DNA from: a virus
DNA length: 64,000 nucleotides
Strand: one strand, 5' to 3'
Virus record (IMG/VR): IMGVR_UViG_3300025131_009354
Location: 1-64,000 of that record
Under the pieces are notes generated by a model. It searched no databases. It was given only the letters and a program-made list of their open reading frames with translations, and had not been told where the DNA came from. The position numbers and the translations under genes were made by a program. Below are positions 1,443 to 54,318 of this stretch, one piece after another (within the stretch, counting starts at the first letter, position 1; each line of letters opens with the position of its first letter).

Positions 1443-3287
1443 ATGAATTGGTACCGCGGTAACAAAAGTTATTTTATTTGGGCTTTTGTATTAGTCGCGG
1501 TTCTTTTCGTTATGTCTTCTCATCTTGCGCGCCTAGAGGTAAACCAGCCCAGTGTTGTGTCTTACAGCCGGGCGCTTACTCTGTTAGGCTCCGCAAGTGA
1601 CCAAGGTACTTCTGCCGAAGTAGTGATCCGCCAAGACAAGTGGACAATCACTATGGGCGAGAAAATCTATGAAACAAATGCACCACTCTCAGAAGAGGTT
1701 TTAAAAAAACTATCTGAAGACAAAAATATAGAGCTTAGGTTTCTTGGGTCAGATCCGCCGTCGATATGGCTGACTCTTCTTGTCTCTTGGCTGCCGATAG
1801 TATTTATATTTATTATTTTAATATATGTATTTCGTTCCGTCATGAAGAACACTGGCCCATCGCCGATGACAACCTTCTCTCAGACAAAGTCCCGAGTCAT
1901 TCTTCCGTCAGAATTTGGTGTAAAGTTTGATGATGTGGCGGGCTGCCAAGAGGCGAAGGAAGAGTTAGTAGAACTAGTTGAGTTCCTGCGTCACCCGCAC
2001 CGTTTTGTAAAGCTTGGCGGCAAGATGCCGAAGGGTGTTCTTTTATATGGTCCTCCTGGGACAGGAAAAACCTTATTAGCCAAGGCTGTTGCTCATGAGG
2101 CTCAGGTTCCCTTTATATTATCTTCCGGGTCTGAATTTGTCGAGATGTATGTTGGTGTCGGCGCATCACGAGTTCGTGACTTATTTGCTCGCGCCAAGAA
2201 GATGGCCCCATGTATTGTATTCATAGACGAGCTAGATGCAATAGGAAAACATCGCGGCGGCGGTGGCCATACCGGAGGGAATGATGAAAGAGAGCAAACA
2301 CTAAATCAAATACTCGTAGAGCTAGACGGATTCGAAGAAAACTCAGGAATAATTGTGATGGCAGCGACTAACCGTGTTGAGGTATTAGATAAAGCTCTGA
2401 CCCGCCCAGGGAGATTTGACAGAAAGGTCTCTGTGCCGCTGCCTGACTCTCGCGGAAGAGAGCAGATTTTAAAAATTCATACTGCCACCGCTCCCCTTGA
2501 TCGCCAGGTAGACCTAAAAACATTGGCAGCAACGACCCCTGGGTTATCAGGCGCTGATTTAGCCAACCTAGTAAATGAGGCATGTATCTTGGCTGCTATG
2601 AAGAAGTCGTCAAAGATTACCAATGCTCACCTTGAAGAAGCAAAGGACAAAGTTCTTATGGGAAAACCCCGTAAATCACTCCAGATTTCTGAGGACTCAC
2701 GCCGCGCAACAGCGATACACGAAGCCGGCCATGCCATTTTGGCTTATTATCTAGAAGATGCTGACCCGCTGCACAAAGTAACAATTGTGCCCCATGGTCA
2801 AGCGCTGGGACTAACTGTACAGATGCCAACTGACGATCGCTTCTCTTGGAACAAGAAGGAGAATATTGCCAGAATAAAAGTCCTTCTTGGAGGATACATC
2901 GCAGAGAAAATGTTCTTTGGGGAAGATGGTACGTCTACTGGTGTTTCAAATGATTTACTGAGAGCAAAACAATTAGCCGAGAGAATGGTAAAGGACTTTG
3001 GAATGGGTTCTATTGGGCCAATGTACTTTGGAAAGAATACAACTAATTCTTATATTGAACGTTCATCAGAAACTTCAGAGGCCTATAAATTAGAGTTTGA
3101 CCAAGCCGTAGAAGAGATTATCAGAAGGTCTCTCAAGGAAGCAGAGGGTCTTCTAGAGTCAAAGAGAGAGCACGTTGCTCTTCTTACGACATCTTTGGTG
3201 GACAATAATACCGTCACGGCAAAGGAGCTAGAGGGCATTTTCGGAGTCCTCGACATTTATATTCAGGAAGATGAAGAAAAAGCTTGA
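1443..3287 (+). CDS. ftsH: FtsH membrane AAA+ zinc protease
   Basis: Full-length FtsH (614 residues; the family is usually 600-650). Two transmembrane segments (about 11-25 and 108-131) bracket a small periplasmic domain, then the AAA+ module: Walker A GPPGTGKT 203-210, pore loop FVEMYVGVG 232-240, Walker B IVFIDE 258-263, second region of homology with [20 protein letters not shown] 308-327. The protease domain has HEAGH 426-430 and the third zinc ligand Asp504 in STGVSND. All catalytic residues are present, so it should extract and degrade membrane and soluble proteins. GAAGAGG precedes ATG 1443. A complete FtsH is unusual in a virus and may remodel the host membrane proteome or degrade host regulators. 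Confidence 0.95.
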
Positions 3288-6673: not shown

Positions 6674-6925
6674 ATGTCAAATAAGTTTAAGATTTCAACA
6701 GCAAGGTTAGCCGAAATTATCAAGGAAGAGTACGCCTCTATTCTGGATGAGCTTGGTGGGCGACGTCCAGATGTGAAGAAGACTAAGTCCGCCGTCAACA
6801 CAGAGAAGGCTGCAACGGACGTAGAGACAGAAGAAGATAATGCAGAGCTTACCAAAGAGGAATCATCTCCCGACTCGATGGGCTCGATCAGAGACCTAAT
6901 CCGGAAAGAGCTTCAGAGCCTGTAA
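6674..6925 (+). CDS. Small protein with capsid-targeting-like N-terminus
   Basis: 83 residues. The first 30 form an amphipathic helix FKISTARLAEIIKEEYASIL ending DEL-GG, matching the (K/R)hTxxxLxxhIxEE pattern of other proteins in this window, and LDE fits a T4-type prohead protease site. The C-terminus (SIRDLIRKELQSL) repeats the same helix type; the middle is acidic and disordered. AAGGAG lies ten bases upstream. Confidence 0.6.
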   Translation: MSNKFKISTARLAEIIKEEYASILDELGGRRPDVKKTKSAVNTEKAATDVETEEDNAELTKEESSPDSMGSIRDLIRKELQSL

Positions 6926-8150: not shown

Positions 8151-8244
8151 TTTATTGTTTCCCGCCGTCGCGACAGCGGGAAACCAGTTTCACTTTGTGG
8201 GCATCCGCGCAATCCCCAACCTTTCACTAATGTATTTTTGGTAG
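8128..8244 (+). CDS. 38-residue secreted peptide
   Basis: ATG 8128 follows AAGGAG (8115-8120) at good spacing, and the frame runs inside and past the 3' end of the methylase gene. The product begins MRYLLMISLLFPAVATA, a signal peptide with an ATA cleavage site, leaving about 21 mature residues (GNQFHFVGIRAIPNLSLMYF region). Ribosome site, signal peptide and tail-to-head packing support a real gene. Confidence 0.6.
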   Translation: MRYLLMISLLFPAVATAGNQFHFVGIRAIPNLSLMYFW

Positions 8245-8255
8245 GAGAAAACCAA

Positions 8256-9842
8256 ATGAACAACGACCATATCTTGTTCGGGAATGATATCCGACAAAAG
8301 CTAATCAATGGAGCAAACAAGCTCACTGATGCGGTAGCCTCAACACTTGGCCCTCGCGGACAGAACGTTATATTATATAAACGAGGGGCTGACCCAGTAA
8401 TCACCAAGGACGGAGTCAGTGTTGCCAGAGTTGTTGAATTAGACGACGATTACGAGCAGGCTGCTGTAGAAGTTCTTCGGCAAGCAGCGCTAGAAACAGA
8501 GAAGGCTAGCGGCGATGGAACAACTACTAGTACAGTTTTAGCTCGGGCCATTTTGATGTCAGCCAACAAGCATATTGCAGCCGGCGCATCTTCTATCGAG
8601 ATCAAGAGGGGCATTGATCTAGCCGTTGAGGCAATCTGCGACAGGATTACAGACATGGCACAACCTGTCTCCAGCGAAGAAGAGATCCGACATGTTGCAA
8701 CAGTGTCTGCTAACGGCGATGAGGCTATTGGAACTCTGATTGCCGAGGCTGTTGCTACTGCCGGTAAAGATGGAGCCATCACGATTGAAGAGGGCAGATC
8801 TCTCCAGACATCCATGGATGTAGTTGAGGGGTTTCAGTTTGAGGGAGGGTATGTCTCCTCTCAGTTCATTACTGACGAGCGCAAAGGGACAGTTGAACAC
8901 CGAGATACTCTTGTTCTTGTGACTGATGAGTCGCTAGATAATGTAGAGGAGATGCTTCCCATTCTTGAGGTGGTTGCCCGCGACGGTCGCCCTTTTGTGG
9001 TGGTGGCGGAAGAAGTTGAGGGGCCACTTTTGGCTGCACTTATTATAAATCGCATGCGTAATGGCATGAAGATCGCTGCTATCAAAGCTCCTCGCTATGG
9101 AGAAGAGCGCCGGAACTTGCTAGAGGATGTCGCCCTTGTTACTGGCGCAACGTTTGTGAGCAAAGAGAGAGGGTTACGTCTTAAGGATGTAAAACTTGAG
9201 CACCTAGGATCAGTCAAGAAAATAGAAATTGGCAAAAGGTTTACCACTATGGCCGACGGTGACGCAAACCACGAAGAACTAGAGGATCGCCTAGCTACCC
9301 TTCGGGGACAAGTAGAGGAAACAGAAAGCCTAGTAGAGGCAGAGAGAATTCAAAATAGAATCACTCGCCTCTCCTCGGCTATCGCCGTCATTAAGATTGG
9401 CGGCGCTACAGAAATAGAAGTCACAGAAAAGAAGCATCGGGTTGAGGACGCCCTAGAGGCTGTTCGATCAGCACAGGAAGAGGGGATTGTCCCCGGCGGC
9501 GGCACAGCCCTTTTAAAGTGCGCTAATAATATTGAGATCGAGGCTGCCTCCCCGGATCAGTTCCGCGGCGCAGAAATAACTCTTCAGGCTTGTTATGCTC
9601 CAATTACCCAGATTTTACAGAATGCAGATATCTCTTCTGATATCGTAGTAAATTCTCTCTTGCATGACGAGCATGATAAGAATGTCGGCTTTAATGTTAG
9701 GACTGAAAGGTTCGAGAATTTAGTGGAGACCGGGGTCATCGACCCGGCTAAAACGGTGAAGTGTGCATTACAAAATGCCGCTAGCGCAGCAGGAACGCTG
9801 CTCACCACTAATTGTGCTGTTCTTCGGAAGGGTGGTGAATAA
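8256..9842 (+). CDS. groL: GroEL chaperonin
   Basis: Start at ATG 8256, six bases after TAGGAG. The 528-residue product covers the whole chaperonin: STLGPRGQNV and ITKDGVSVA of the equatorial domain, ATP-binding GDGTTT (about 87-92), apical EGFQFEGGYVSSQF, and the C-terminal VPGGGTALL and ASAAGTLLTT. The GGM-rich C-terminal tail of cellular GroEL is absent (ends LRKGGE), and a charged insertion near 350-375 differs from the E. coli pattern. No groES is in the window, so it may work with host GroES, without one, or with a co-chaperonin elsewhere. Likely folds capsid or other phage proteins. Confidence 0.95.
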   Translation: MNNDHILFGNDIRQKLINGANKLTDAVASTLGPRGQNVILYKRGADPVITKDGVSVARVVELDDDYEQAAVEVLRQAALETEKASGDGTTTSTVLARAILMSANKHIAAGASSIEIKRGIDLAVEAICDRITDMAQPVSSEEEIRHVATVSANGDEAIGTLIAEAVATAGKDGAITIEEGRSLQTSMDVVEGFQFEGGYVSSQFITDERKGTVEHRDTLVLVTDESLDNVEEMLPILEVVARDGRPFVVVAEEVEGPLLAALIINRMRNGMKIAAIKAPRYGEERRNLLEDVALVTGATFVSKERGLRLKDVKLEHLGSVKKIEIGKRFTTMADGDANHEELEDRLATLRGQVEETESLVEAERIQNRITRLSSAIAVIKIGGATEIEVTEKKHRVEDALEAVRSAQEEGIVPGGGTALLKCANNIEIEAASPDQFRGAEITLQACYAPITQILQNADISSDIVVNSLLHDEHDKNVGFNVRTERFENLVETGVIDPAKTVKCALQNAASAAGTLLTTNCAVLRKGGE

Positions 9843-19383: not shown

Positions 19384-20427
19384 ATGGCTGTTGACTTCAA
19401 AACCTTCGTATCCCTGGCCCCCGCAGTTAGCGCTGCTCGGTTGCCCGTCTTGCTTCGTGGTCGCCACGGCATCGGCAAAAGCCAGGTTGTTTATCAACTC
19501 GCAGGTACCCTCGGGCTTCCTGTTATTGAGCGCCGTGCCAGCCAGATGACTGAGGGCGACCTTGTTGGTCTGCCCAGCATCGAGGGCAACCGTACCACGT
19601 TCAATCCGCCGGATTGGTTCAAGCAAGCTTGCGAAGAGCCCGCCGTCCTCTTCCTCGACGAGGTTGATCGTGCTACTCTTGAGGTTCGTCAGGGCATCTT
19701 TGAGTTGACTGACAGCCGTAAGCTTAACGGGCACACTCTTCACGAAGATACCATCGTCTTCGCTGCCATCAACGGCGGTGATCATGGCGAGAGCTATCAG
19801 GTCAATGAGATGGATCCTGCTGAACTTGATCGTTGGAGCGTCTGGGATGTCGAGCCCACTACTGAAGACTGGCTCGCCTGGGGTAAGAACAATGTTGATA
19901 GTCTTGTTTGGGACTTCATTAACCAGAACCGTGCCCACCTTGAGCATACTACCGATATTGAGCCCAACAAGCGCTATCCCAGCCGTCGTAGCTGGAAGCG
20001 ACTGAATGATGTTTTGGTCAACGCTGACATGATCAAAGAGGCATCACCGGCCATGTTCAACCTGGCTCAAAGCTTCGTTGGGTTTGAAGCTGCGGTAGCC
20101 CTCAACGATTTCGCTAAGAATTACGAGCGGGTCGTAACTGTTGATCAGCTTCTGGCTGGCGAACGTGTCGAAGCTCTGGCGGCCTTCTCGCTCAATGAGC
20201 ACTGCGCCATGATCGAAAAGATCGACGCCGAAGAGGCATGCAAGAAGGAACTCACCGAAGAGCAGATCAGCAACCTGGCTACCTACTTCGTCAGCCTGCC
20301 TAGCGAAGCTGCCATGAAGCTCTGGGGACTCGTCAGCAAAGGCGGAGTACAGGGCAATGTGGTGAACTTCCACGCTGCCAACGACGGCGATGTTGGGGCA
20401 CACTTGAGCAATATTCTGGGAGCATAA
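19384..20427 (+). CDS. MoxR-type AAA+ ATPase
   Basis: 347 residues. Walker A GRHGIGKS 26-33, GDLVGLP (59-64, the MoxR pattern after sensor-like M-T-E), Walker B VLFLDEVD 88-95, then FAAINGG of sensor 1. MoxR ATPases act with von Willebrand-type partners to load metals or remodel proteins. The likely partner is the DUF2201-type VWA protein at 25228, which has the same kind of promoter. Codon use is CGN-rich for arginine. Start follows AAGGAG. Confidence 0.85.
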   Translation: MAVDFKTFVSLAPAVSAARLPVLLRGRHGIGKSQVVYQLAGTLGLPVIERRASQMTEGDLVGLPSIEGNRTTFNPPDWFKQACEEPAVLFLDEVDRATLEVRQGIFELTDSRKLNGHTLHEDTIVFAAINGGDHGESYQVNEMDPAELDRWSVWDVEPTTEDWLAWGKNNVDSLVWDFINQNRAHLEHTTDIEPNKRYPSRRSWKRLNDVLVNADMIKEASPAMFNLAQSFVGFEAAVALNDFAKNYERVVTVDQLLAGERVEALAAFSLNEHCAMIEKIDAEEACKKELTEEQISNLATYFVSLPSEAAMKLWGLVSKGGVQGNVVNFHAANDGDVGAHLSNILGA

Positions 20428-29772: not shown

Positions 29773-30516
29773 ATGAAGCTTGATCTTAACTTCCTTAAAA
29801 ATATGATATTGGAAGAACGACAAAGCCGCAAAAAGCAGTATCTACGAGAAGGGGTTTTTGGAGATTACTCTAAAGGGCGCTCCGATCGCGGCATGACTCC
29901 TGCTGATATTGATGCTCGAATTGCAGCAGTCCAATCCAAGCTAGGAATAGAAACCGGCAACGTAGGAAAACCACAAGATGTTAAAACTTTTGGGGGATCC
30001 GGCACCGCACCTATTCCAGGTGAAGCAACCACTACCATGGCTCCTGCTGCTGGTAACGCCGCACGGGACGCAACAAAAGACCTAATTAATAAATTTACTA
30101 CCGCAGAGAAAAAAGAAGCCGCGGCGGATAGTATAATAATTCTTATTGCGACGCCTCCTTTTGGAAATGTCAAAGCCGGGGAAAAGATAGAAAATATAAT
30201 TTTAAAAGATTTCGAAAACTTTGGATCAATTCTTACGGGGCCAGGAGGATTTGGTGCCGAGGGCGTCAAGGCACTTGGACACAACTACGCGCTAACAAAC
30301 GTAATAAATACAATTTTCCCAGCAGGCTTTGGAACTACTCTCAACGATGAACAAGAGGAATCTTATACAATGCTCTTAGACATTGTCCGAGAACTGCTCG
30401 GACAGGACAAAGTGCAGGAGTTAGAAGATGAGATGGGGGTTAAGCCATTGGCTGCATTGCCTCCAGAATCTGCCGGCACTTCGCCCACGGACACAATGAT
30501 AGGAGCATATGACTAA
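29773..30516 (+). CDS. Putative packaged protein with capsid-targeting-like N-terminus
   Basis: 247 residues. MKLDLNFLKNMILEERQSRK is an amphipathic basic helix that leads into YLRE-GVFG, which fits a T4-type prohead protease site ((L/I)xE then a small residue). The body is Gly/Ala-rich with helical segments and no recognised domain; it ends in an acidic stretch. It heads a group of similar N-termini up to 32274. Confidence 0.65.
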   Translation: MKLDLNFLKNMILEERQSRKKQYLREGVFGDYSKGRSDRGMTPADIDARIAAVQSKLGIETGNVGKPQDVKTFGGSGTAPIPGEATTTMAPAAGNAARDATKDLINKFTTAEKKEAAADSIIILIATPPFGNVKAGEKIENIILKDFENFGSILTGPGGFGAEGVKALGHNYALTNVINTIFPAGFGTTLNDEQEESYTMLLDIVRELLGQDKVQELEDEMGVKPLAALPPESAGTSPTDTMIGAYD

Positions 30517-30665
30517 TGATTACTAAAACTCCTATTTGGAATATCGTCCGGCAAGAACTAAGAGAAGCCGCTAGATCAACGAAAATTGTAAACCTTATAA
30601 TAGAAAGAATCAAGGAGACACCGCAAGATGAAGCTGACAATGAGCCAACTAAAAAAGATCGTTAG
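30516..30665 (+). CDS. 49-residue protein with capsid-targeting-like N-terminus
   Basis: TAATG overlap with the previous gene. ITKTPIWNIVRQELREAARS repeats the basic amphipathic pattern and contains LRE-A. Overlaps the next gene by 38 bases. Confidence 0.5.
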   Translation: MITKTPIWNIVRQELREAARSTKIVNLIIERIKETPQDEADNEPTKKDR

Positions 30666-30828
30666 CGAAGTCTTGGCAGAAGCTGCGCCTGACGGCTATA
30701 TACAAAAGAAATATAGGAAATCTTTTAAACGGATGATAGCCAAAGCCGGCAGCGGCGGGAATAAAAATACACCGCCCTTTACTAAAAAAGCAAAGCTCGG
30801 CAAATCAGGAACTTCAGGGAACCCATAG
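30628..30828 (+). CDS. Small basic protein with capsid-targeting-like N-terminus
   Basis: 66 residues. MKLTMSQLKKIVSEVLAEAA: the MKhTxxQLKKIhxE pattern with LAE-A as candidate cleavage site. The remainder is very basic (Lys/Arg/Gly), so the cleaved product would bind DNA, like T4 internal proteins. AAGGAG is upstream. Confidence 0.6.
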   Translation: MKLTMSQLKKIVSEVLAEAAPDGYIQKKYRKSFKRMIAKAGSGGNKNTPPFTKKAKLGKSGTSGNP

Positions 30829-31598
30829 TGAAAAAATTAATAACAGAGTGGAGAAGGTTTATAAAAGAAGGTGTCGTAATTAACATCCCTGATACCTTTG
30901 TTCCCCACTCCGAACTCAATCAGGATTTCTGGAATCAACCCGGAGAAAAGCTCGATCCGAAGATCCGATTACAACTCCTGAAAATTGCTCAGGACTTCAT
31001 TGATAACAGTCAAGGATCTGACGCTCCTTTAAAGGACATCACGTTTACAGGATCACTTGCGAACTTTAATTACTCTCCCTTCTCTGATGTGGATCTTCAT
31101 GTTCTTTTCGATTTTTCTGAGATAAATGACGATGAAGAATTAGTCCGTGAATATTTTCAGGCTGCCAAAGCTGTCTGGAATTTTACCCACGACATTCGCA
31201 TGAAAGGCTATGAGGTTGAGATCTACGGGCAACACTCTAAAGATCCTCACGTAGCTTCTGGACTTTATTCAGTCCTCAACGATGAGTGGATTGTGAAACC
31301 TGACCAGAAAGATCCTCAAATCGACTTTAAAGATATTAAAGTAAAGGCTGATTCTTTGGAAGATCAGATTGATAGAGTTGTAGGACTTTATGACGAAGGC
31401 AAATATCAAGAAGCTATTGACCGTGCAGACAAACTGAAAGAGAAGATTAGAAAACTCCGCAAAACAGGACTCGATAGTGTGGGAGAGTACTCAGTTGAGA
31501 ATCTCGCATTCAAAACGCTACGACGAAACGGATATCTCGGCAAATTGTCTGATGCTAAGACAGATGCTTATGATAAACTCATGTCCGTCGAGGACTAA
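30828..31598 (+). CDS. Nucleotidyltransferase with capsid-targeting-like N-terminus
   Basis: GTG 30828 overlaps the previous stop. 256 residues. N-terminus MKKLITEWRRFIKEG: (I)KE-G candidate site. The pol-beta-type nucleotidyltransferase motif is clear: GS 75-76, then DVD 87-89, and a third acid in YEVEIYGQ near 135. C-terminal helices may be a substrate domain. If it is packaged, it would enter the cell with the DNA and modify a host RNA, protein or metabolite. Target unknown. Confidence 0.75.
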   Translation: MKKLITEWRRFIKEGVVINIPDTFVPHSELNQDFWNQPGEKLDPKIRLQLLKIAQDFIDNSQGSDAPLKDITFTGSLANFNYSPFSDVDLHVLFDFSEINDDEELVREYFQAAKAVWNFTHDIRMKGYEVEIYGQHSKDPHVASGLYSVLNDEWIVKPDQKDPQIDFKDIKVKADSLEDQIDRVVGLYDEGKYQEAIDRADKLKEKIRKLRKTGLDSVGEYSVENLAFKTLRRNGYLGKLSDAKTDAYDKLMSVED

Positions 31599-31611
31599 CT
31601 CAAATAAGGAA

Positions 31612-31620
31612 CTATTTATA
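31612..31620 (+). promoter_or_regulatory. CTATTTATA box
   Basis: CTATTTATA two bases before ATG 31623, with AAGGA just upstream of the box. Same two-base spacing as at 44662 and 54353. Confidence 0.4.
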
Positions 31621-31622
31621 GC

Positions 31623-31934
31623 ATGAAGCTTACACGCGACATTATCAGAAACCTCATCGAAGAAGAGGTTAAACTTCTTTCTGAAGCTGTCTTCGGTGCC
31701 CAGTCCAATATGACTGGACAAGAGAGAGAAAAAGAAAGCCTGATTGCTCAAGCTCAAGCATATCAACTTGCAATGACACCTGAAGCTTTGGAAAAACAAT
31801 GGGCCGAGGCAGAAAAAGCTGGAGTGGCTCCTGAGAGTAAGAATGCGTGGATTAAGGAAAGAAAAAAACACCTTGACGACGCCTGGGCTTCGGTCAATGC
31901 AGATGCTACTCGGCTATCGGGAGGTCAGCCATAA
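31623..31934 (+). CDS. Putative packaged protein with capsid-targeting-like N-terminus
   Basis: 103 residues. MKLTRDIIRNLIEEEVKLLS then E-AVFG: the same basic-amphipathic helix and an LSE-A site. GVFG/AVFG after the site is shared with the protein at 29773. The mature part is a helical, charged protein. Confidence 0.6.
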   Translation: MKLTRDIIRNLIEEEVKLLSEAVFGAQSNMTGQEREKESLIAQAQAYQLAMTPEALEKQWAEAEKAGVAPESKNAWIKERKKHLDDAWASVNADATRLSGGQP

Positions 31935-31935
31935 C

Positions 31936-32274
31936 ATGAAAATTACAAAACCACAACTACAACAAGTTATTCAAGAAGAGATTAAGAATGTCATCTCCGA
32001 GATGGTTCGTCTTCGTCCAAAAGATATTGCCGGTAAAGATCTCACTTTCCAAATCCTTCAGCCCATTACTAACAAAAGAGGCAAGCCTGACTTTGAGCGG
32101 GTAACCTATAAGGGCAAGATCGTAAAGCTTCCGGGTATTACCCGAAGTGAACTGCGCGATCCTCTATCTCCTGAGCAGCCTGTTATTGTAGAATTAGAGT
32201 CTGGTGAACATCTTCATTTTGTTCCTGGCACAGATGTAAAGCTCACGCTAGCTGACGTCACATACAATTTATAA
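31936..32274 (+). CDS. Hypothetical protein with capsid-targeting-like N-terminus
   Basis: ATG 31936; earlier in-frame ATG 31843 lies inside the previous gene. 112 residues. MKITKPQLQQVIQEEIKNVI repeats the motif, with ISE as candidate site. The C-terminal part is beta-rich (DLTFQILQPI, VTYKGKIVKLPG, VIVELESGEHLHFVPG). Confidence 0.6.
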   Translation: MKITKPQLQQVIQEEIKNVISEMVRLRPKDIAGKDLTFQILQPITNKRGKPDFERVTYKGKIVKLPGITRSELRDPLSPEQPVIVELESGEHLHFVPGTDVKLTLADVTYNL

Positions 32275-32298: not shown

Positions 32299-32307
32299 CT
32301 ATTTATT
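32299..32307 (+). promoter_or_regulatory. CTATTTATT box
   Basis: CTATTTATT 17 bases before ATG 32324, heading the YeaH-SpoVR-PrkA genes. A TATAAT also lies at 32315-32320. Confidence 0.45.
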
Positions 32308-32323
32308 TTAGGTCTATAATATT

Positions 32324-33514
32324 ATGAGCACTTTTAAAGAACATAAAACAATTGCTGATAGAGCCGCGAGTGATCGTGCGCGTCATCGCCAAAAGATTGA
32401 AAAAGCTATAAAAGAGAGTATTAAGGACGTTGTAGCTGAAGAAAGTATCATTGGACAAAACGGAAAAAAGAAGATAAGAATACCTGTTAGGGGCATAAAA
32501 GAGCACCGGTTTGTTTATGGAGCTAATGAAAATAATAAGCAAGTCGGCTCAGCGGAAGGAAAAGAAGTCAAACAAGGACAGAGAATTGGACACCGCCGTC
32601 GCCGTTTAGCGAAGGAAGGACAAGGCGACCGTCCTGGAGATAAGCCCGGCGAGGAAATGTATGAGATAGAAATGTCCCTAGAGGAACTAGCTGGATATCT
32701 TTTTAGTGACCTTAATTTGCCCGAGCTAGAAAAGAAGAACTTCAAATTTACAACTCAAGAAAAGATGAAACGGAAAGGCAAGCGCCCATACGGAATTCGT
32801 CCACGCTTGTCAAAAAAAGAAACCATTAAACAAAAGATTAGAAGAAAGAAGGCCGCAATTAAGGCGGGATCCTATGATCCGGAAAGTGGTGAGCGATTTA
32901 CGTTTCACGAGAGTGACCTACGGTATAAACACATAGCACCAGTAATCAAAGAAAACACTGCTGCTGTTGTATTTTTTGTGATGGATGTGTCCGGGTCTAT
33001 GACTAAATCCAAGAAGTTTCTTGCTCGGAGTTTCTTTTTTCTTCTCTATCAATTTTTAAACCATAAATATTCATCTATTGACGTAGTGTTTATTTCTCAT
33101 ACTGCCGACGCCCACGAAGTCAATGAGGAGCAATTTTTTACACAGGTTCCCAATGGCGGAACACTTGTCTCGACTGGGTTGAAAAAAGCAGAAGAGATTA
33201 TTGAAAAACGATATCACCCAAACAATTGGAATCTCTATACTTTTTACTGCGGGGACGGAGATAATTGGGGGATAGATAATAAAGAGGCGCTTGATGCGTT
33301 TAAGCGGTTAAAAGAGATAAATCAGGCAATGTGTTATACTGAAATCGGCTCTGAGCCGACTTACCGAGAACTTTCATTCTTTGGGGGTTCGGGCGAAAGA
33401 CGGCTTTGGGATTGGGTTAAGCTCGCAGAGGATAAGAGCTTCAAGAGAGTTCGCCTCACCGAGAGTAAAGATATTTGGCCAGCGTTTAAAAGATTATTCG
33501 GAGGTAAAGAATAA
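32324..33514 (+). CDS. yeaH: YeaH/YhbH-family (DUF444) VWA protein
   Basis: 396 residues. Basic N-terminal region with HRRRRLAKEGQGDRPGDKPG typical of DUF444, then a VWA-like domain with MIDAS DVSGS 221-225 and FISHTADAHEV, NGGTLVSTGL, YTFYCGDGDNWG. In bacteria YeaH is the partner of the PrkA/YeaG kinase and often near SpoVR. Here the order is yeaH, spoVR, prkA with one-base or three-base gaps, so they form one operon. Confidence 0.92.
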   Translation: MSTFKEHKTIADRAASDRARHRQKIEKAIKESIKDVVAEESIIGQNGKKKIRIPVRGIKEHRFVYGANENNKQVGSAEGKEVKQGQRIGHRRRRLAKEGQGDRPGDKPGEEMYEIEMSLEELAGYLFSDLNLPELEKKNFKFTTQEKMKRKGKRPYGIRPRLSKKETIKQKIRRKKAAIKAGSYDPESGERFTFHESDLRYKHIAPVIKENTAAVVFFVMDVSGSMTKSKKFLARSFFFLLYQFLNHKYSSIDVVFISHTADAHEVNEEQFFTQVPNGGTLVSTGLKKAEEIIEKRYHPNNWNLYTFYCGDGDNWGIDNKEALDAFKRLKEINQAMCYTEIGSEPTYRELSFFGGSGERRLWDWVKLAEDKSFKRVRLTESKDIWPAFKRLFGGKE

Positions 33515-34830
33515 TGTCAGACTGGTCGATGGAAGAGCTTCAGGAATGGGATAAAAAGATTTGTAAGATTGGAGAGTCCCTGGGTTTAGACTGGTATCCA
33601 ATTGAGTATGAGATATGTGATTATAAAGAGATGATCGGACACATGGCTTACACGGGGTTACCGACTCACTATAGGCATTGGTCTTTCGGAAAATCCTTTG
33701 ATCGTATTCAGACAGAATATAATTTGGGGATGTCTGGTTTACCATATGAGATGATAATAAATTCCAATCCCAGTATATCGTACCTTATGACAGAGAACCC
33801 AATGCCGACCCACCTACTTACAATGGCACATTGTGTAGGCCACAGCGATTTCTTCAAGAATAACCGTATGTTCTCTGAGACCGGCGCTGATACAGTAATT
33901 GATCGGTTTAAAACCTCCGGTAAACGTGTCAAGAAATATATGGAAGATCCAAATATTGGAATTGATAAGGTTGAGAAGATATTAGATGCTTGTCACGCTA
34001 TTCGTTTTCAAGTCCCGCGGACTCCCGGACTAAAACGTCGGAATCATAAAGAACTTAAAGAATATTATAAAAGATTAATATTGAATGATAAGTCTGGCTG
34101 GTGGGATCATTTTAATTTAGAAAAAATTCCACTAGAGCCAGACTGTAACCTTTTAGCCTTTATAGCAGATAATAATCGATTTCTAGAGGAGTGGGAAAGA
34201 GATCTAATTCGTATTGTTGAACAAGAGTCTAAATATTTTGTCCCGCAAGCTTGTACCAAAATAATGAATGAGGGGTGGGCTTGCATGATGCATGAAAAAA
34301 TTCTTAATATGCTGGATATACCAGATGATTATTTCCTATCATTTGTCCGATTACATAATCAGGTAGTTAGGCCTCACTTGGGCAGGATTAATCCATATCA
34401 CTTAGGGTTTAAAATATTCAAATATATTGAAGAAACCCAAGGATTTGATGAATGTCTGAGGATCAGAGAAATACACAACGACGAAACTTTCCTTAAAAAC
34501 TATCTTAATGAGGAATTATGCAAAGAGTTGAATTTATTTACTTATTCGTTTAATAGGAGAGAGGGGTACAACCAAATCGCCGATGTTTCTGGGGAAGATA
34601 GCTGGCAAAGAGTCCGCGATAACCTAATTAAAGGTGTGGGATTAAATAGTGTTCCTGTAGTTCTAATAAAAGAATTACGTAAAGATGGAACACTTATTTT
34701 ACAGCATGAGCACGATGGGAGAGATCTTGAATTATCCGAAGCAAATAAAGTGTTTGAGCACATTAACAGTTTGTGGGTTGGTGGTATAAGATTCACAACA
34801 GTAATAGAAGAAGATACTTGGGAGTTCTAG
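33514..34830 (+). CDS. spoVR: SpoVR-family protein
   Basis: 438 residues. Blocks of the SpoVR family are visible: LGLDWYPIEYEICDYKEMIG, MAYTGLPTHYRHWSFGKSFD, EMIINSNPSISYLMTEN, HCVGHSDFFKNN, and FVPQACTKIMNEGWACMMHE. Rich in conserved His, as in cellular SpoVR. Biochemical role is not established; in bacteria it is linked to spore cortex or to stress and stationary-phase responses with PrkA/YeaH. Starts at the last base of yeaH. Confidence 0.92.
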   Translation: MSDWSMEELQEWDKKICKIGESLGLDWYPIEYEICDYKEMIGHMAYTGLPTHYRHWSFGKSFDRIQTEYNLGMSGLPYEMIINSNPSISYLMTENPMPTHLLTMAHCVGHSDFFKNNRMFSETGADTVIDRFKTSGKRVKKYMEDPNIGIDKVEKILDACHAIRFQVPRTPGLKRRNHKELKEYYKRLILNDKSGWWDHFNLEKIPLEPDCNLLAFIADNNRFLEEWERDLIRIVEQESKYFVPQACTKIMNEGWACMMHEKILNMLDIPDDYFLSFVRLHNQVVRPHLGRINPYHLGFKIFKYIEETQGFDECLRIREIHNDETFLKNYLNEELCKELNLFTYSFNRREGYNQIADVSGEDSWQRVRDNLIKGVGLNSVPVVLIKELRKDGTLILQHEHDGRDLELSEANKVFEHINSLWVGGIRFTTVIEEDTWEF

Positions 34831-34833
34831 TAG

Positions 34834-36777
34834 ATGTCAAAAAATAACAAATCTGATAAGTTTTTGAAACTGGTTGGCAAACACCAGGAGAAGAAAAAAG
34901 TAAAACAATTTCGTGGAAGTTTATCTGAATACATGGAATTGCTTGAAGATGATTCTGGTATAGCCAAGCTTGCACATAAAAGACTGTTTGACTCCATAGT
35001 CTCGAATGGCGTAACTAGAATGGAGAGATCTAATGATCGATGCAACAAATTATTCGGCGGGGAAAAGCTTAGAACATATGATTATTTCCAAGACAAGTTC
35101 TTCGGGATGGAGCGCTCTCTTGCAAAGATAATGAGATTCTTGAGATCAGCATCTTTAAAAGGAGAAGAGAGCCGTCAAGTTCTTTTACTGCTTGGCCCAG
35201 TGGGTGCCGGTAAATCTGCCTTAATGGAGCATATCAAAAGCGCCCTAGAAGAATGTGAGGGAATGTATCATATTGATGGGTGTCCGATCCATGAAGAGCC
35301 CCTTCATCTTATTCCCCGCTCCTTGAGGGAAGAGTTTCGTAAGCTATATGGAATTCGGATTGAAGGTGATTTGTGCCCAGTCTGCCGGTTCAGGCTTAAA
35401 GACGAATTTGATAATGATTATATGGCAATGCCTGTTGCTCAATCTTCTTTTTCTGTCCGCGGGAGGCGTGGTGTCGGCGTGGTGCCGCCAATGGATGCCA
35501 ATAGCCAGGACGTAACAATTCTAGTTGGCAGCGAAGATATTTCAAAGCTGGATATGTATTCTGAAGATGATCCACGAGTTCTCTCACTAAATGGGGCTTT
35601 CAACGTTGGTAACCGAGGTATTGTGGAGTTTGTAGAAGTCTTTAAAAACGAAATTGAGTTCTTACATACAATGATCACAGCGACACAAGAGAAATCAGTG
35701 CCATCGCCAGGCAAAGGTCCCATGATTTATTTTGATGGCGTAATTCTAGCTCATTGTAATGAGGCAGAGTGGAACAAGTTCAAGTCAGAGAATACTAATG
35801 AAGCTATCCTTGATAGAATTGTGAGAGTTAATGTACCTTATTGCCTAGAAGTATCTGAGGAAATAAAGATTTATCAAAAGATGCTTAACCTATCTGATTT
35901 TGATGGACATGTTGCCCCACATACACTGGAGGTTGCTTCTATGTTCGCCGTTCTTAGCCGGTTGCACCCCTCCAACAAGGTTGACCCACTAACGAAAATG
36001 AAGCTCTATAACGGCAAGGATGTGATTGAAAAAGGTACAGTTAAGAAAATTGATATTAACGACCTCAGAGATGAATCCAGAAATGAGGGAATGACTGGTA
36101 TTTCTACACGATTCATCATGAAGGCTATTGATTCGGCTCTATCGGATAGTGAAGAAGATATGGTAACGCCAATATCTATCCGCGATGCGCTAATCAAGCA
36201 GGTCAAAGATCAAATTGTAGTAGAGGACGACCGTAATAGATATCTTGACTTTTTGGGAAAAACATTACACGACGAATATCTTAATATCCTAGAAAAAGAA
36301 ATTACAAAAGCATTTGTATCAGCATATGAAGAACAAGCAGAAGCTCTGTTTAATAACTATTTGGATCATGCGGAAGCCTACGTTAATATGGCGACAGTAA
36401 AGGATTCTATTACAAAGGAAGAAATAAACCCAGATGACGGCTTTATGGCTTCTATCGAGGAGCAAATTGGGATTACCGGGACATCCAAAGAGAACTTCCG
36501 TGTGGATATTACAGCCTTCATGTTCTCTAAGCTTCGACGCGGAGAGAAAGTGGACTGGAAATCTTATGCGCCGCTTAGGGAAGCTATTGAGACTAAGTTA
36601 ACATCCTCAGTCAAGCAAATATCTCGCATTGTGACCAAATCTAAAAGCCGAGATAAAAAGCAACAAGGAAAATATAACGAAATGGTGGACACTCTAATAA
36701 AAGAATATGGATACAACGAGAGTTCAGCACAAGAAGTAATTAAATTCGCAGCTAATAATCTGTGGAGAGACAGCTAA
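34834..36777 (+). CDS. prkA: PrkA/YeaG-family AAA+ serine kinase
   Basis: 647 residues, the usual family length. FRGSLSEYMELLEDD near the N-terminus, Walker A GPVGAGKS 121-128, CPIHEEPLHLIP and a CPVC/C zinc-like site near 182, MIYFDGVILAHCNEAEW, and a C-terminal PrkA domain. The family couples an AAA+ motor with kinase or protease-like regulation in stress responses. The complete triad in one phage operon suggests a functional module rather than a relic. Confidence 0.92.
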   Translation: MSKNNKSDKFLKLVGKHQEKKKVKQFRGSLSEYMELLEDDSGIAKLAHKRLFDSIVSNGVTRMERSNDRCNKLFGGEKLRTYDYFQDKFFGMERSLAKIMRFLRSASLKGEESRQVLLLLGPVGAGKSALMEHIKSALEECEGMYHIDGCPIHEEPLHLIPRSLREEFRKLYGIRIEGDLCPVCRFRLKDEFDNDYMAMPVAQSSFSVRGRRGVGVVPPMDANSQDVTILVGSEDISKLDMYSEDDPRVLSLNGAFNVGNRGIVEFVEVFKNEIEFLHTMITATQEKSVPSPGKGPMIYFDGVILAHCNEAEWNKFKSENTNEAILDRIVRVNVPYCLEVSEEIKIYQKMLNLSDFDGHVAPHTLEVASMFAVLSRLHPSNKVDPLTKMKLYNGKDVIEKGTVKKIDINDLRDESRNEGMTGISTRFIMKAIDSALSDSEEDMVTPISIRDALIKQVKDQIVVEDDRNRYLDFLGKTLHDEYLNILEKEITKAFVSAYEEQAEALFNNYLDHAEAYVNMATVKDSITKEEINPDDGFMASIEEQIGITGTSKENFRVDITAFMFSKLRRGEKVDWKSYAPLREAIETKLTSSVKQISRIVTKSKSRDKKQQGKYNEMVDTLIKEYGYNESSAQEVIKFAANNLWRDS

Positions 36778-36791
36778 AGGATTGCCTAAAG

Positions 36792-37778
36792 ATGGGTAAC
36801 ACCCTAGAAAGACTAGAAAAACTACAGAACTTTATTGGAAACACTCCAACAATTCGGTTTCAGTGCGAAATTAATGGTAAGAACGTTACTGTTTTAGCAA
36901 AATATGAAGCTAATAATTTTACCGGCAGCATTAAAGACCGGATGGCCTACCAAATAATTAAAGCTGCACATGTGTTTGATAAAATCTCCCCCGGAGATAT
37001 CATTGTTGAGGCAACAAGTGGGAATACTGGTATTTCTTTTGCTGCAATTGGGGCATATCTCGGACATCCAGTCCAAATTTATATGCCAAACTGGCTTTCT
37101 GAAGAAAGAAAACGTTTATTACGATTTTATGGTGCAGATTTATTTGAAATAAGCGCAAAAGATGGCGGATTTATGGAATGTATTGACCTTGCTGCTAAAA
37201 AAAGTAAGAAAAACGGGTATTTTTGCCCAAAACAGTTTGATAATACTTGGAATATAATGGCTCACCAGAAAACAACGGCTCCGGAGCTTGAAAATACATT
37301 AAAATCCAATAAATTAGGTAATTTAGATGTATTTATAGCAGGTGTAGGGACGGGTGGGACTATAATGGGGTTTTATCACTATTTTTCTGAACTCTTGCAC
37401 AATAAGAACGATTTCAAGGCATTTCCAATACTGCCGGACAAAAATGAAGACGAAGGACATCGCATCGAAGGCATTGGTGATAGTTTTGTTCCGCGTATCC
37501 TAAATTTAAAGTCCCTGGGACCTGTTCTGAGGGTAAAAGACTCAGATGCAATAAATATAGCGAGACAGATAAACAAGCTAGGGCTCTCCGTAGGAATTTC
37601 CTCCGGCGCGAATCTTTTCGGGGCTATAATCAAAGCATCAGAGCTTCCAGCATCTGGAAATGTCGCGACAGTGCTACCTGACGGAAATAAGAAATATCTA
37701 ACGACAGATTTATGCTCTCAGAGCAAAGAACCTCTCTCGGAAGAGATAAAAATCTTAGATTATGAATTAATTTCTTGA
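36792..37778 (+). CDS. cysK: Cysteine synthase-like PLP enzyme
   Basis: ATG 36792 follows AAAGGA; ATG 36762 in frame lies inside prkA. 328 residues of fold-type-II PLP enzyme: NNFTGSIKDR with the PLP lysine Lys48, ATSGNTG 74-80 substrate loop, GVGTGGTIMG phosphate cup, and VGISSGAN near the C-terminus. It would make cysteine from O-acetylserine and sulphide, or a related beta-replacement. Directly follows prkA, so probably co-transcribed. Confidence 0.9.
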   Translation: MGNTLERLEKLQNFIGNTPTIRFQCEINGKNVTVLAKYEANNFTGSIKDRMAYQIIKAAHVFDKISPGDIIVEATSGNTGISFAAIGAYLGHPVQIYMPNWLSEERKRLLRFYGADLFEISAKDGGFMECIDLAAKKSKKNGYFCPKQFDNTWNIMAHQKTTAPELENTLKSNKLGNLDVFIAGVGTGGTIMGFYHYFSELLHNKNDFKAFPILPDKNEDEGHRIEGIGDSFVPRILNLKSLGPVLRVKDSDAINIARQINKLGLSVGISSGANLFGAIIKASELPASGNVATVLPDGNKKYLTTDLCSQSKEPLSEEIKILDYELIS

Positions 37779-37835: not shown

Positions 37836-38186
37836 GTGCAAATAATGAAAGAGGGAGTTGATATATCGATTCCTATGTCCGGCAACGATGACGAATATCC
37901 AGAGGAGGCTCTGCCTGTTGGAACATATGTTCGCCCAATACGCCATGACAAGCTTGGTGTTATAACTGATGCTTTTTATGGGGAGTTGGACGCAAACAAT
38001 ACTAAAATAATTGTTTATACAATTTTAATGTTCCCCAAAAACAGCCCCATGGGACACCTTTCAAAAGAGCCAGAGCAATACTATATATCTAACGAATACG
38101 AGTACGACATTATCGCCTATTTAATGGTCGCACCTGCCGACATGGATAAAATAACTAGAAACCTAAGTGGAGGATTGTTCATATGA
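37836..38186 (+). CDS. Hypothetical protein (GTG start)
   Basis: GTG 37836 after AAGGGA. 116 residues: VGTYVRPIRHDKLGVITDAF and IIVYTILMFP suggest a GDLV-like barrel with longer loops. ATGA overlap with the next gene. Confidence 0.55.
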   Translation: MQIMKEGVDISIPMSGNDDEYPEEALPVGTYVRPIRHDKLGVITDAFYGELDANNTKIIVYTILMFPKNSPMGHLSKEPEQYYISNEYEYDIIAYLMVAPADMDKITRNLSGGLFI

Positions 38187-38950
38187 GGATACAGCCATCA
38201 GCACTATTGTTTGATATGGATGGGACGATTACAGATGCAAGACAACCTATTACACAAGATGTGGCAGATTCTTTGCTGGGGATCCCCCCCGGCGTAAAGA
38301 AATATTTAGTCACAGGGTCGGACATGGCGAAGGTCGAAGAGCAAATCCCAACAGATATTCTACTTGAGGTTTTTGATCGAGTTTATGCGTGCAACGGGAC
38401 TAGAGTCTATAATTGTAATTTAGATATGGATGATGAACACGGCGCTTTAGAGGCAGAGTTGATCCACAAGGTATCCCTAACTGATCATTATTCAGAGGCT
38501 GATATTAATCATATCCTAAACGTGTTGCTTAAAACGGCCTCAGATACGCACACTAAAATTAAAACCGGTACTTTTGTAGAATGGCGCGACAGTCAGGTCA
38601 ATTTTTCTGTAGTGGGGAGAAACTGCACGCCAGAACAAAGAGATGACTATATTCAGTGGGATAAGAAATCCGGCGAACGCAGCAAAATTGTAGAAAAACT
38701 AAGGAAGGAGTTCAAAGGATGGGGGCTCTCTTTCCGACTAGGCGGACAGATCTCGATTGACATAACGAGAGAAGGCTGGGATAAAAGTTATGCCTTTAAT
38801 AACATGTTAGAATCCCCAGACCAGTGTGTGTTTTTCGGAGACAAAATCTGTAAAGATGGAAATGACCTTGATATTGCAATGAAGTGCGCCTTTTATCACC
38901 ACATTGAGAGTCCTGCCGACCTCATTCTTAACCTACAGGAGTATCAATGA
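38183..38950 (+). CDS. Eukaryotic-type phosphomannomutase (HAD IIB)
   Basis: 255 residues. HAD motif DMDGT 11-15, then TGSD, a cap with NFSVVGRNCTPEQRDDYI, and GGQISIDITREGWDKSYAF plus FFGDKICKDGNDLDIA: these are the blocks of the alpha-PMM family (yeast/human PMM), not of bacterial ManB. It interconverts mannose-6-P and mannose-1-P, feeding GDP-mannose for glycans. It fits the glycan genes at 57-64 kb. Confidence 0.88.
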   Translation: MRIQPSALLFDMDGTITDARQPITQDVADSLLGIPPGVKKYLVTGSDMAKVEEQIPTDILLEVFDRVYACNGTRVYNCNLDMDDEHGALEAELIHKVSLTDHYSEADINHILNVLLKTASDTHTKIKTGTFVEWRDSQVNFSVVGRNCTPEQRDDYIQWDKKSGERSKIVEKLRKEFKGWGLSFRLGGQISIDITREGWDKSYAFNNMLESPDQCVFFGDKICKDGNDLDIAMKCAFYHHIESPADLILNLQEYQ

Positions 38951-53017: not shown

Positions 53018-53809
53018 ATGAAAAATATAGATAGACAACAAATGATAGCCGAACAAGTAATTCGCGAACACGTTCGTAAAAGAATTAAAAATAAGATCCT
53101 AGAACAAAGACAGAATGAAGGTAAGCTTCGAAAAGTAATTCGTCGGATGATACTTGAAACGGAAACAGGCACAGAAGAGCCAAATAGCTTTACTGGAATA
53201 AATGTGCTAGCTGATTTATTAAAAAGCATCGTACCTGTTCTGGGAGATGGTTACAAAATGCTTACTACTTCAGAAGCGCAGAGGCAGTCATTTAGGACTC
53301 ATATAATCCACGCTGTTAAGAATACTTTACGTCCGATTGAAGTTAATAAAGACGCAGAAGACGTCCAAGAACGCTTTGAGTATGAAATTGATGCCGATAT
53401 CCTTTTAGAAAAAGTAGCTATGGTTGTTGATGATGAGGCAGCCGAATCCGTCGAAGGTGAGTTCATCGATATCGAGGACTCCGCACCAGTAGAAGATGAG
53501 TTTGTAAGAGTTGACGATCAAAATGAAACAGGTCGCAACTTTGCTGCGGAAACATTTAAAAAAATAGAAAAACAAATAGTAGACGCCTATGACCTATTGG
53601 CGGACGATGAAGACCGTAATATGTTTTATGAGTACCTGCTTACGAATCTTCTCCTCTATTTTGATAAGTTTGAAGATGAGTTGGCCAATGAGCTTCCAGA
53701 TGTTTCTACCAAGGAATATGAAGAAGAGAAGCATGACACTGCATCTGCCGGCAGCGAATTCGCACCCGACGCCCCAGCCGGCGAAGCAGATCTCGGCTTA
53801 GAACTTTAA
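53018..53809 (+). CDS. Acidic prohead-core-like protein
   Basis: 263 residues. The first 50 are very basic and helical (QVIREHVRKRIKNKILEQRQ, KLRKVIRRMILETETGT), with ILE-T or VIRE as candidate protease sites; the rest is acidic (DDEAAESVEGEFIDIEDS). Basic head plus acidic body is the pattern of prohead core proteins. Confidence 0.6.
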   Translation: MKNIDRQQMIAEQVIREHVRKRIKNKILEQRQNEGKLRKVIRRMILETETGTEEPNSFTGINVLADLLKSIVPVLGDGYKMLTTSEAQRQSFRTHIIHAVKNTLRPIEVNKDAEDVQERFEYEIDADILLEKVAMVVDDEAAESVEGEFIDIEDSAPVEDEFVRVDDQNETGRNFAAETFKKIEKQIVDAYDLLADDEDRNMFYEYLLTNLLLYFDKFEDELANELPDVSTKEYEEEKHDTASAGSEFAPDAPAGEADLGLEL

Positions 53810-53994: not shown

Positions 53995-54318
53995 GGGGGT
54001 AACCGGTATCGATTGACGGGGAAGTAGAAAAGGTGCAAGGGTGAGGGAAGCGTGGCTCACTAAAAACGCTTAAACTTTTAATCGCAAACGACGATTTTAA
54101 CATGGAGATGGCAGCTTAAAAACCTGACCTCTCTTGAGGCGACGGCAGCCGATAAACAGAAAGCCGTATTTGAGAACCTTAAGGCTTTTGATTATCTCAG
54201 CCACAATAAGATGATCTAGTCAAGCGGGCTGTCCGACGAAAAAAACAGGCCTAACCTTGTGAATGACCTTTCTGTGAAACTGGACAAGACGGGAGTTCGA
54301 TTCTCCCTACCTCCACCA
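53995..54318 (+). ncRNA. ssrA: Transfer-messenger RNA (tmRNA)
   Basis: One-piece tmRNA of 324 bases. The tRNA-like ends pair (GGGGGTA with TACCTCC), the T-arm is GGGAG TTCGATT CTCCC and CCA is encoded. After the characteristic ATCGCAAACGACGA segment the tag frame starts at GCA 54084 and reads ANDDFNMEMAA, stop TAA 54117-54119. It would rescue stalled ribosomes and add this tag; the M-A-A end is a variant of the usual L-A-A that ClpXP and FtsH recognise. No SmpB gene is in the window, so it would use the host's. Confidence 0.95.

Follow-up and report, generated by a model that had tools for sequence, protein, structure and literature searches.

In the phage lineage studied here, an uncultivated one of T4 type, PrkA, YeaH and SpoVR form a rearranged, phage-specific version of a bacterial module that was already known. 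The window, the whole 64,000-base stretch that was analysed, comprises bases 1-64000 of a 75,610-base IMG/VR virus record, which is probably itself a fragment. The genes run YeaH-SpoVR-PrkA (H-R-A), in place of the bacterial PrkA-YeaH-SpoVR (A-H-R), and they share a single origin in this lineage. In one clade the module is inserted into the operon for head and tail proteins, and a box of the kind found ahead of virion-type genes precedes it in the window. The pattern points to late transcription and to a possible role as host-derived accessory cargo acting on the infected cell.

The three genes and the predicted fold of SpoVR

An earlier note had described a tight, full-length three-gene operon with intact motifs, a description that the ORFs, Pfam domains and motif alignments bear out (Table 1). 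The YeaH and SpoVR ORFs share 1 base, and the gap between SpoVR and PrkA is 3 bases; as in the bacterial operon, the three genes are adjacent and on the same strand, and only their order departs from it. Pfam assigns YeaH to DUF444 (3.8e-103), SpoVR to the SpoVR domain (4.2e-120) and SpoVR_C (2.5e-07), and PrkA to AAA_PrkA (1.1e-140, residues 29-384) and the PrkA C-terminal domain (3.1e-80, residues 386-638). The window's copies retain GPVGAGKS, the MDVSGS MIDAS, HCVGHSDFFKNN and NEGWA intact. Across 10 phage sequences, the PrkA Walker A motif GPVGAGKS (residues 121-128) and the YeaH MIDAS residues D221, S223, S225, T280 and D311 are invariant. The SpoVR motifs HxxxH and NEGWAxxxH are invariant as well, and K430 of the window's PrkA aligns with the conserved K426 of YeaG, represented by the Enterobacter copy.

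Table 1. Module genes and associated elements, in window coordinates
Feature	Position	Strand	Basis or remark
YeaH (DUF444; VWA domain, MIDAS motif DVSGS), 396 aa	32324..33514	+	ORF, Pfam
SpoVR (YcgB family), 438 aa; helical fold predicted to be gluzincin-like	33514..34830	+	ORF, Pfam, model
PrkA (YeaG family), AAA+ ATPase plus PrkA C-terminal domain, 647 aa	34834..36777	+	ORF, Pfam
CTATTTATT box (possible late promoter or leader element)	32299..32307	+	25 nt before YeaH ATG
Upstream gene block with several MK(L/I)T..LI.EE leaders; two with box 11-43 nt upstream	29773..32274	+	

Structural modelling suggests a link between SpoVR and the gluzincin metallopeptidases. The model was built from 62 sequences and reached a pLDDT of 85.5; an earlier one from 10 sequences (pLDDT 62.5) was left unused. 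When it was compared with structures, the matches listed were almost only gluzincins (M1, M2, M3, M13, M32, M61 and others), with Z of 5.5-11.6 and, among these matches, up to 11.6 over 156-192 residues (VIA-align), middling values that helical folds can reach by chance. The model puts H106 and H110 within one helix (97-116) and E253 within another (249-266), positions that match those of the H, H and E metal ligands that gluzincins carry on two helices. All three residues are invariant in the 62 sequences. Unlike gluzincin metallopeptidases, which have the catalytic HExxH glutamate, SpoVR has C, V or I at position 107 in 62/62 sequences and lacks that residue.

All 62 aligned members match both SpoVR and SpoVR_C in Pfam, and scanning them against Pfam gave no peptidase family and only a weak DUF5700 match in three. 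A Foldseek search of the model returned no PDB match at E 0.001 and, among viral models, one match only, to an unnamed protein. Because helical models can reach such Z values by chance, the gluzincin likeness is a strong lead, not proof, that SpoVR may be a gluzincin-like metal-binding protein.

Phage identity and origin of the module

Scanning the window's SpoVR against 2.9 million viral contigs in IMG/VR yielded 120 relatives, 80 of which were fetched. All three genes occur in H-R-A order in 77 of these 80 loci, a set that includes near-duplicates (e.g. L006/L007), and the other three (L033, L053, L066) are broken by contig ends. Hallmark genes were searched on 16 long module-bearing records, the window's record among them: a T4-type (gp17-type) terminase was found on 13 and the gp23 capsid gene on 12. 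Neither was found on the window's own 75.6 kb fragment. The description of the sequence as a phage-like genome therefore holds, with the hallmark head and packaging genes sitting on the contigs of relatives. The longest of the 16 records measure 190-284 kb, which places some members of the lineage in the jumbo size class.

Three public bacterial MAGs also carry module contigs (L082, L083, L084). On one of these, 306 kb long and binned under Methylococcaceae, gp23 accompanies the module; the other two are assigned to Legionellales SP195 and Halobacteriovorax SP2999. Because all three show the phage gene order and are placed within the phage clade, they are most likely misbinned phage. Enterobacter phage LAU1 (L192, MN688132.1) is a different case: its record starts with YeaG-YeaH, the YeaG is 95% identical to an enterobacterial-type gene, and the pair probably derives from the host at the edge of a prophage. 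Such records would favour reading the module as misassigned bacterial DNA, from a chromosome or a prophage edge, but for this lineage that reading is refuted and its probability is negligible. Both gp23 and terminase share contigs with the module, the gene order is found in phages only, and gp23 on the 306 kb contig indicates that the MAGs are what is misassigned. A chromosomal origin of the module is ruled out on these grounds, and the earlier note's own test for a chromosomal contig, trees nested inside one bacterial genus and bacterial flanks, came out the opposite way.

With the three phage-like MAG contigs set aside, every Firmicutes-type locus complete for the module (73/73) had the bacterial order A-H-R. 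In one scan of cellular genomes, the nearest PrkA matches came from Clostridia and Negativicutes, at 56-60% identity over the full length and with the CPxH/CPxC motif in common. Their prkA-yhbH-spoVR operon contains all three families; it differs in its A-H-R order and chromosomal location, and the phage clade is separate from it with full support. E. coli yeaG-yeaH and ycgB belong to orthologous families and have the AAA+ and MIDAS motifs in common with the phage genes, yet YeaG is only about 32% identical to the window's PrkA and lacks the CPxH/CPxC motif. In E. coli, ycgB stands outside the yeaG-yeaH operon.

In the PrkA tree, 35 phage rows form one clade (SH-aLRT 100), which is sister to Clostridia with a support of 81, a Binatia sequence falling outside. 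The phage rows likewise group together in the SpoVR tree (SH-aLRT 99) and the YeaH tree (98); all three trees come from "quick" searches with no bootstrap. Patristic distances correlate among the three gene trees (Spearman 0.84-0.96). Values of dN for the phage module genes are 0.07-0.19 and silent sites are saturated, so that dN/dS is mostly incomputable as a ratio. Because distances agree across genes, dN is low and the phages form one clade, the module entered this lineage once, long ago and as a unit. From these sequence comparisons, it is under strong purifying selection in this phage lineage, and its donor was of Firmicutes type or from a relative of that group.

Phage carriage of the module as such is not new, since some or all of its genes occur in phiYS40, huge phages and Ralstonia phage RsoM2USA. 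The annotation of phiYS40 already names SpoVR and a serine kinase, which lowers the novelty that the earlier note had implied. A literature search on phage PrkA/SpoVR produced no accounts beyond those cited here. PrkA is encoded in only 16 of 50,697 phage records, which belong to Thermus phages, to four huge phages lacking annotation and to LAU1. The module is present in Thermus phages phiYS40, TMA, phiLo, MN1 and Lalka8, and its order is H-R-A, as in the window, in 4/4 of those examined (phiYS40, phiLo, MN1, Lalka8), with one additional gene ahead of PrkA in phiYS40. The Thermus proteins differ from those of the window in being only 24-33% identical and on a separate long branch, in another phage lineage. 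This distant branch in a different lineage suggests a separate or very old acquisition, the branch being too long for firm placement in the tree.

Huge phages LR745206, LR756502, LR756504 and LR756511 and large IMG/VR contigs, together spanning 110-640 kb, encode PrkA and YeaH and mostly SpoVR. They differ in having the bacterial A-H-R order and a PrkA that is of Pseudomonadota type or placed beside Bdellovibrionota. A second IMG/VR scan found complete A-H-R modules in 63/80 loci, several of them on terminase-bearing contigs of 113-342 kb. The Ralstonia jumbo phage RsoM2USA, likened here by description, has SpoVR (ORF28) and PrkA (ORF30) (PMC8504454), and was not found in the phage collection searched. 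Given the differing orders and tree positions among phages, at least three or four phage acquisitions are likely.

Genomic setting and timing of expression

One clade (L169, L171, L172) has the module embedded among structural genes, in the order box-gp22-gp23-p422-p291-p277-YeaH-SpoVR-PrkA, followed by a tail sheath gene. The genes of this block overlap or nearly abut, and no second box lies immediately ahead of the module. Here gp23 was called by a Pfam/PHROG match and the tail sheath gene by a Pfam match, p422 has a weak head-tail adaptor match, and gp22 is named from its position. The corresponding empty site is seen in L238 and L243-L247, which share these genes and have the box and tail sheath straight after p277. 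The module occupies the head-gene site in 9 of the 44 loci that could be judged, and in other clades it is remote from gp23, with PhoH or other genes as neighbours. Because relatives build the operon without it there, the module is best described as cargo in a structural operon, seemingly dispensable for assembly. At the p277/tail sheath site, L239 (3600-8568) and L241 (3565-8533) hold about 5 kb of other DNA, a possible cargo hotspot.

The box CTATTTATT occurs six times in the window, always on the + strand, against 0.9 copies expected on both strands together. The window has 14 coding-strand copies of CTAYTTAY and a single one on the opposite strand, where 3.35 would be expected on each; in twelve gp23 regions there are 40 sense versus 3 antisense copies (8.25 expected). 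This box is enriched upstream of head and sheath genes, lying ~40 nt ahead of gp22 and about 47-57 nt ahead of the sheath gene, and of 14 loci in the window clade, 12 have it 11-25 nt ahead of YeaH (70 nt upstream searched). The box counts and the relatives thus agree with the earlier observation that a box like that of virion-type genes precedes the module. The T4 late promoter core TATAAATA matches the box core only as its reverse complement. Because TATAAATA mostly lies opposite to the genes (10 of 11), the box reads CTATTTAT on the coding strand, and its identification as a plain T4 late promoter was rejected. The distance to YeaH is so short that almost no leader fits; this, together with the reversed T4 core, makes the box a "candidate late promoter" at most. 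The box common to virion-type genes and the placement in a structural operon support late expression, which the earlier note had suggested, and the module is probably transcribed late in infection.

The upstream gene block probably also consists of late genes. Its MK(L/I)T..LI.EE leaders resemble, as we take it, the T4 capsid-targeting sequences of internal proteins, and by this analogy the genes next to the module may be internal-head-like. Leaders of the same type also occur at window positions 6674-6925 and 53018-53809, some such genes having a CTATTTAT box upstream. The leader is present in neighbouring genes and absent from YeaH, SpoVR and PrkA, so packaging through a capsid-targeting leader is not supported. 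With that leader missing and with relatives building head and tail operons that have no module there, the proposal that the three proteins are packaged in the virion found no support.

Several other genes accompany the module. A PLP-dependent enzyme of the cysteine synthase type (36762-37778) overlaps the end of PrkA and, along with a phosphomannomutase-like HAD phosphatase (38183-38950), is kept in most close relatives. A MoxR/CobS-like AAA+ ATPase (19384-20427), also kept near the module in close relatives, is a possible second ATPase besides PrkA. Elsewhere, the window encodes a 614-aa phage FtsH-like protein that joins an AAA+ domain to an M41 peptidase domain (1443-3287), a GroEL-like chaperonin (8238-9842; PHROG match 6.9e-142) and a tmRNA gene with the tag ANDDFNMEMAA (53995-54318), which adjoins a PhoH gene.

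Possible functions and their evidence

In E. coli, YeaG and YeaH jointly quiesce metabolism under nitrogen starvation, acting as a "metabolic brake" (PMC4664914, PMC10954441), and YeaG lowers mqsRA and dinJ-yafQ transcription in starved cells (PMC4664914). The biochemistry of YeaG/PrkA is disputed, with kinase, protease or neither proposed; B. anthracis PrkA shows no kinase and negligible protease activity, yet the bacterium requires it for sporulation and under osmotic stress (PMC13001217). A solved structure exists for a PrkA relative (9xip-9xir). In vivo, SpoVR is an RNA-binding protein, and it has an effect on the spore cortex (PMC12456014). Work cited in that paper describes it as required for the B. 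subtilis cortex to form and as taking part in cortex formation in Myxococcus.

The best available explanation of the phage module is an effect on the state of the host, by analogy with E. coli yeaGH (PMC4664914, PMC10954441). The bacterial PrkA-YeaH-SpoVR set would have been captured whole, once, by an ancestor of a large T4-type (gp23/gp17) phage group, reordered to H-R-A and then retained as a unit by strong selection. It would serve as accessory cargo read with late genes, from its own box in the window clade and within the gp22-gp23-head-tail transcript in another. The phage proteins probably work as in the host, with PrkA as an AAA+ ATPase and YeaH as its VWA adaptor. SpoVR may be a metal-binding, gluzincin-like effector handled by this remodelling pair, possibly in a three-protein complex. 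The likely use would be to put the host into a quiescent, stress-tolerant state, or to extend such a state, so that a starved or damaged cell stays intact during virion assembly. We give about an even chance to this account of a captured host quiescence/stress module, kept as late accessory cargo that acts on the infected cell. A metabolic brake late in infection could reduce phage yield, which speaks against it. More tentatively, and in a form we consider doubtful, PrkA/YeaH (AAA+ plus VWA adaptor) would drive a gluzincin-fold SpoVR without the peptidase glutamate. Several phage lineages would have captured this whole machine independently as a late host-arrest or preservation device, sometimes expressed from the capsid operon.

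A role in virion morphogenesis, with the AAA+/VWA/SpoVR trio as a chaperone or maturation machine for head and tail proteins, would suit the clade with the module between the gp22-p277 genes and the tail sheath. It would also suit Lalka8, whose module lies near portal/TerL, between portal/minor head and TerL, giving a similar neighbourhood in two unrelated phage groups. However, the empty-site relatives and the distant placement in other clades indicate that assembly seems not to need the module, and we judge this role improbable. We rate it on a par with envelope protection, in which SpoVR and its partners would preserve peptidoglycan or membrane late in infection and thereby delay lysis or prevent superinfection. 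The cortex roles of SpoVR and the late position of the module fit that proposal, but RNA binding by SpoVR points elsewhere. The same RNA binding, taken with the effect of YeaG on mqsRA and dinJ-yafQ, would instead favour counter-defence or RNA-level takeover, with the module modifying a host toxin-antitoxin or RNA target. A late-gene position would be unusual for such a role, which seems less likely again. The host-state explanation remains the one we prefer.

The PrkA-YeaH-SpoVR stress module is widespread in bacteria, and no consensus exists on its biochemical role. Because unrelated phage groups carry all three genes, and one clade carries them inside a head-tail operon, they form one functional unit, one that pays off during infection, probably late. 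Among the "sporulation" genes carried by viruses of an oxygen-minimum zone, spoVR is reported to be the most abundant (PMC8940887), an abundance that need not imply spore formation. Thermus phages offer the best experimental handle, since isolates with the module exist and phage genetics may provide a route to its function.
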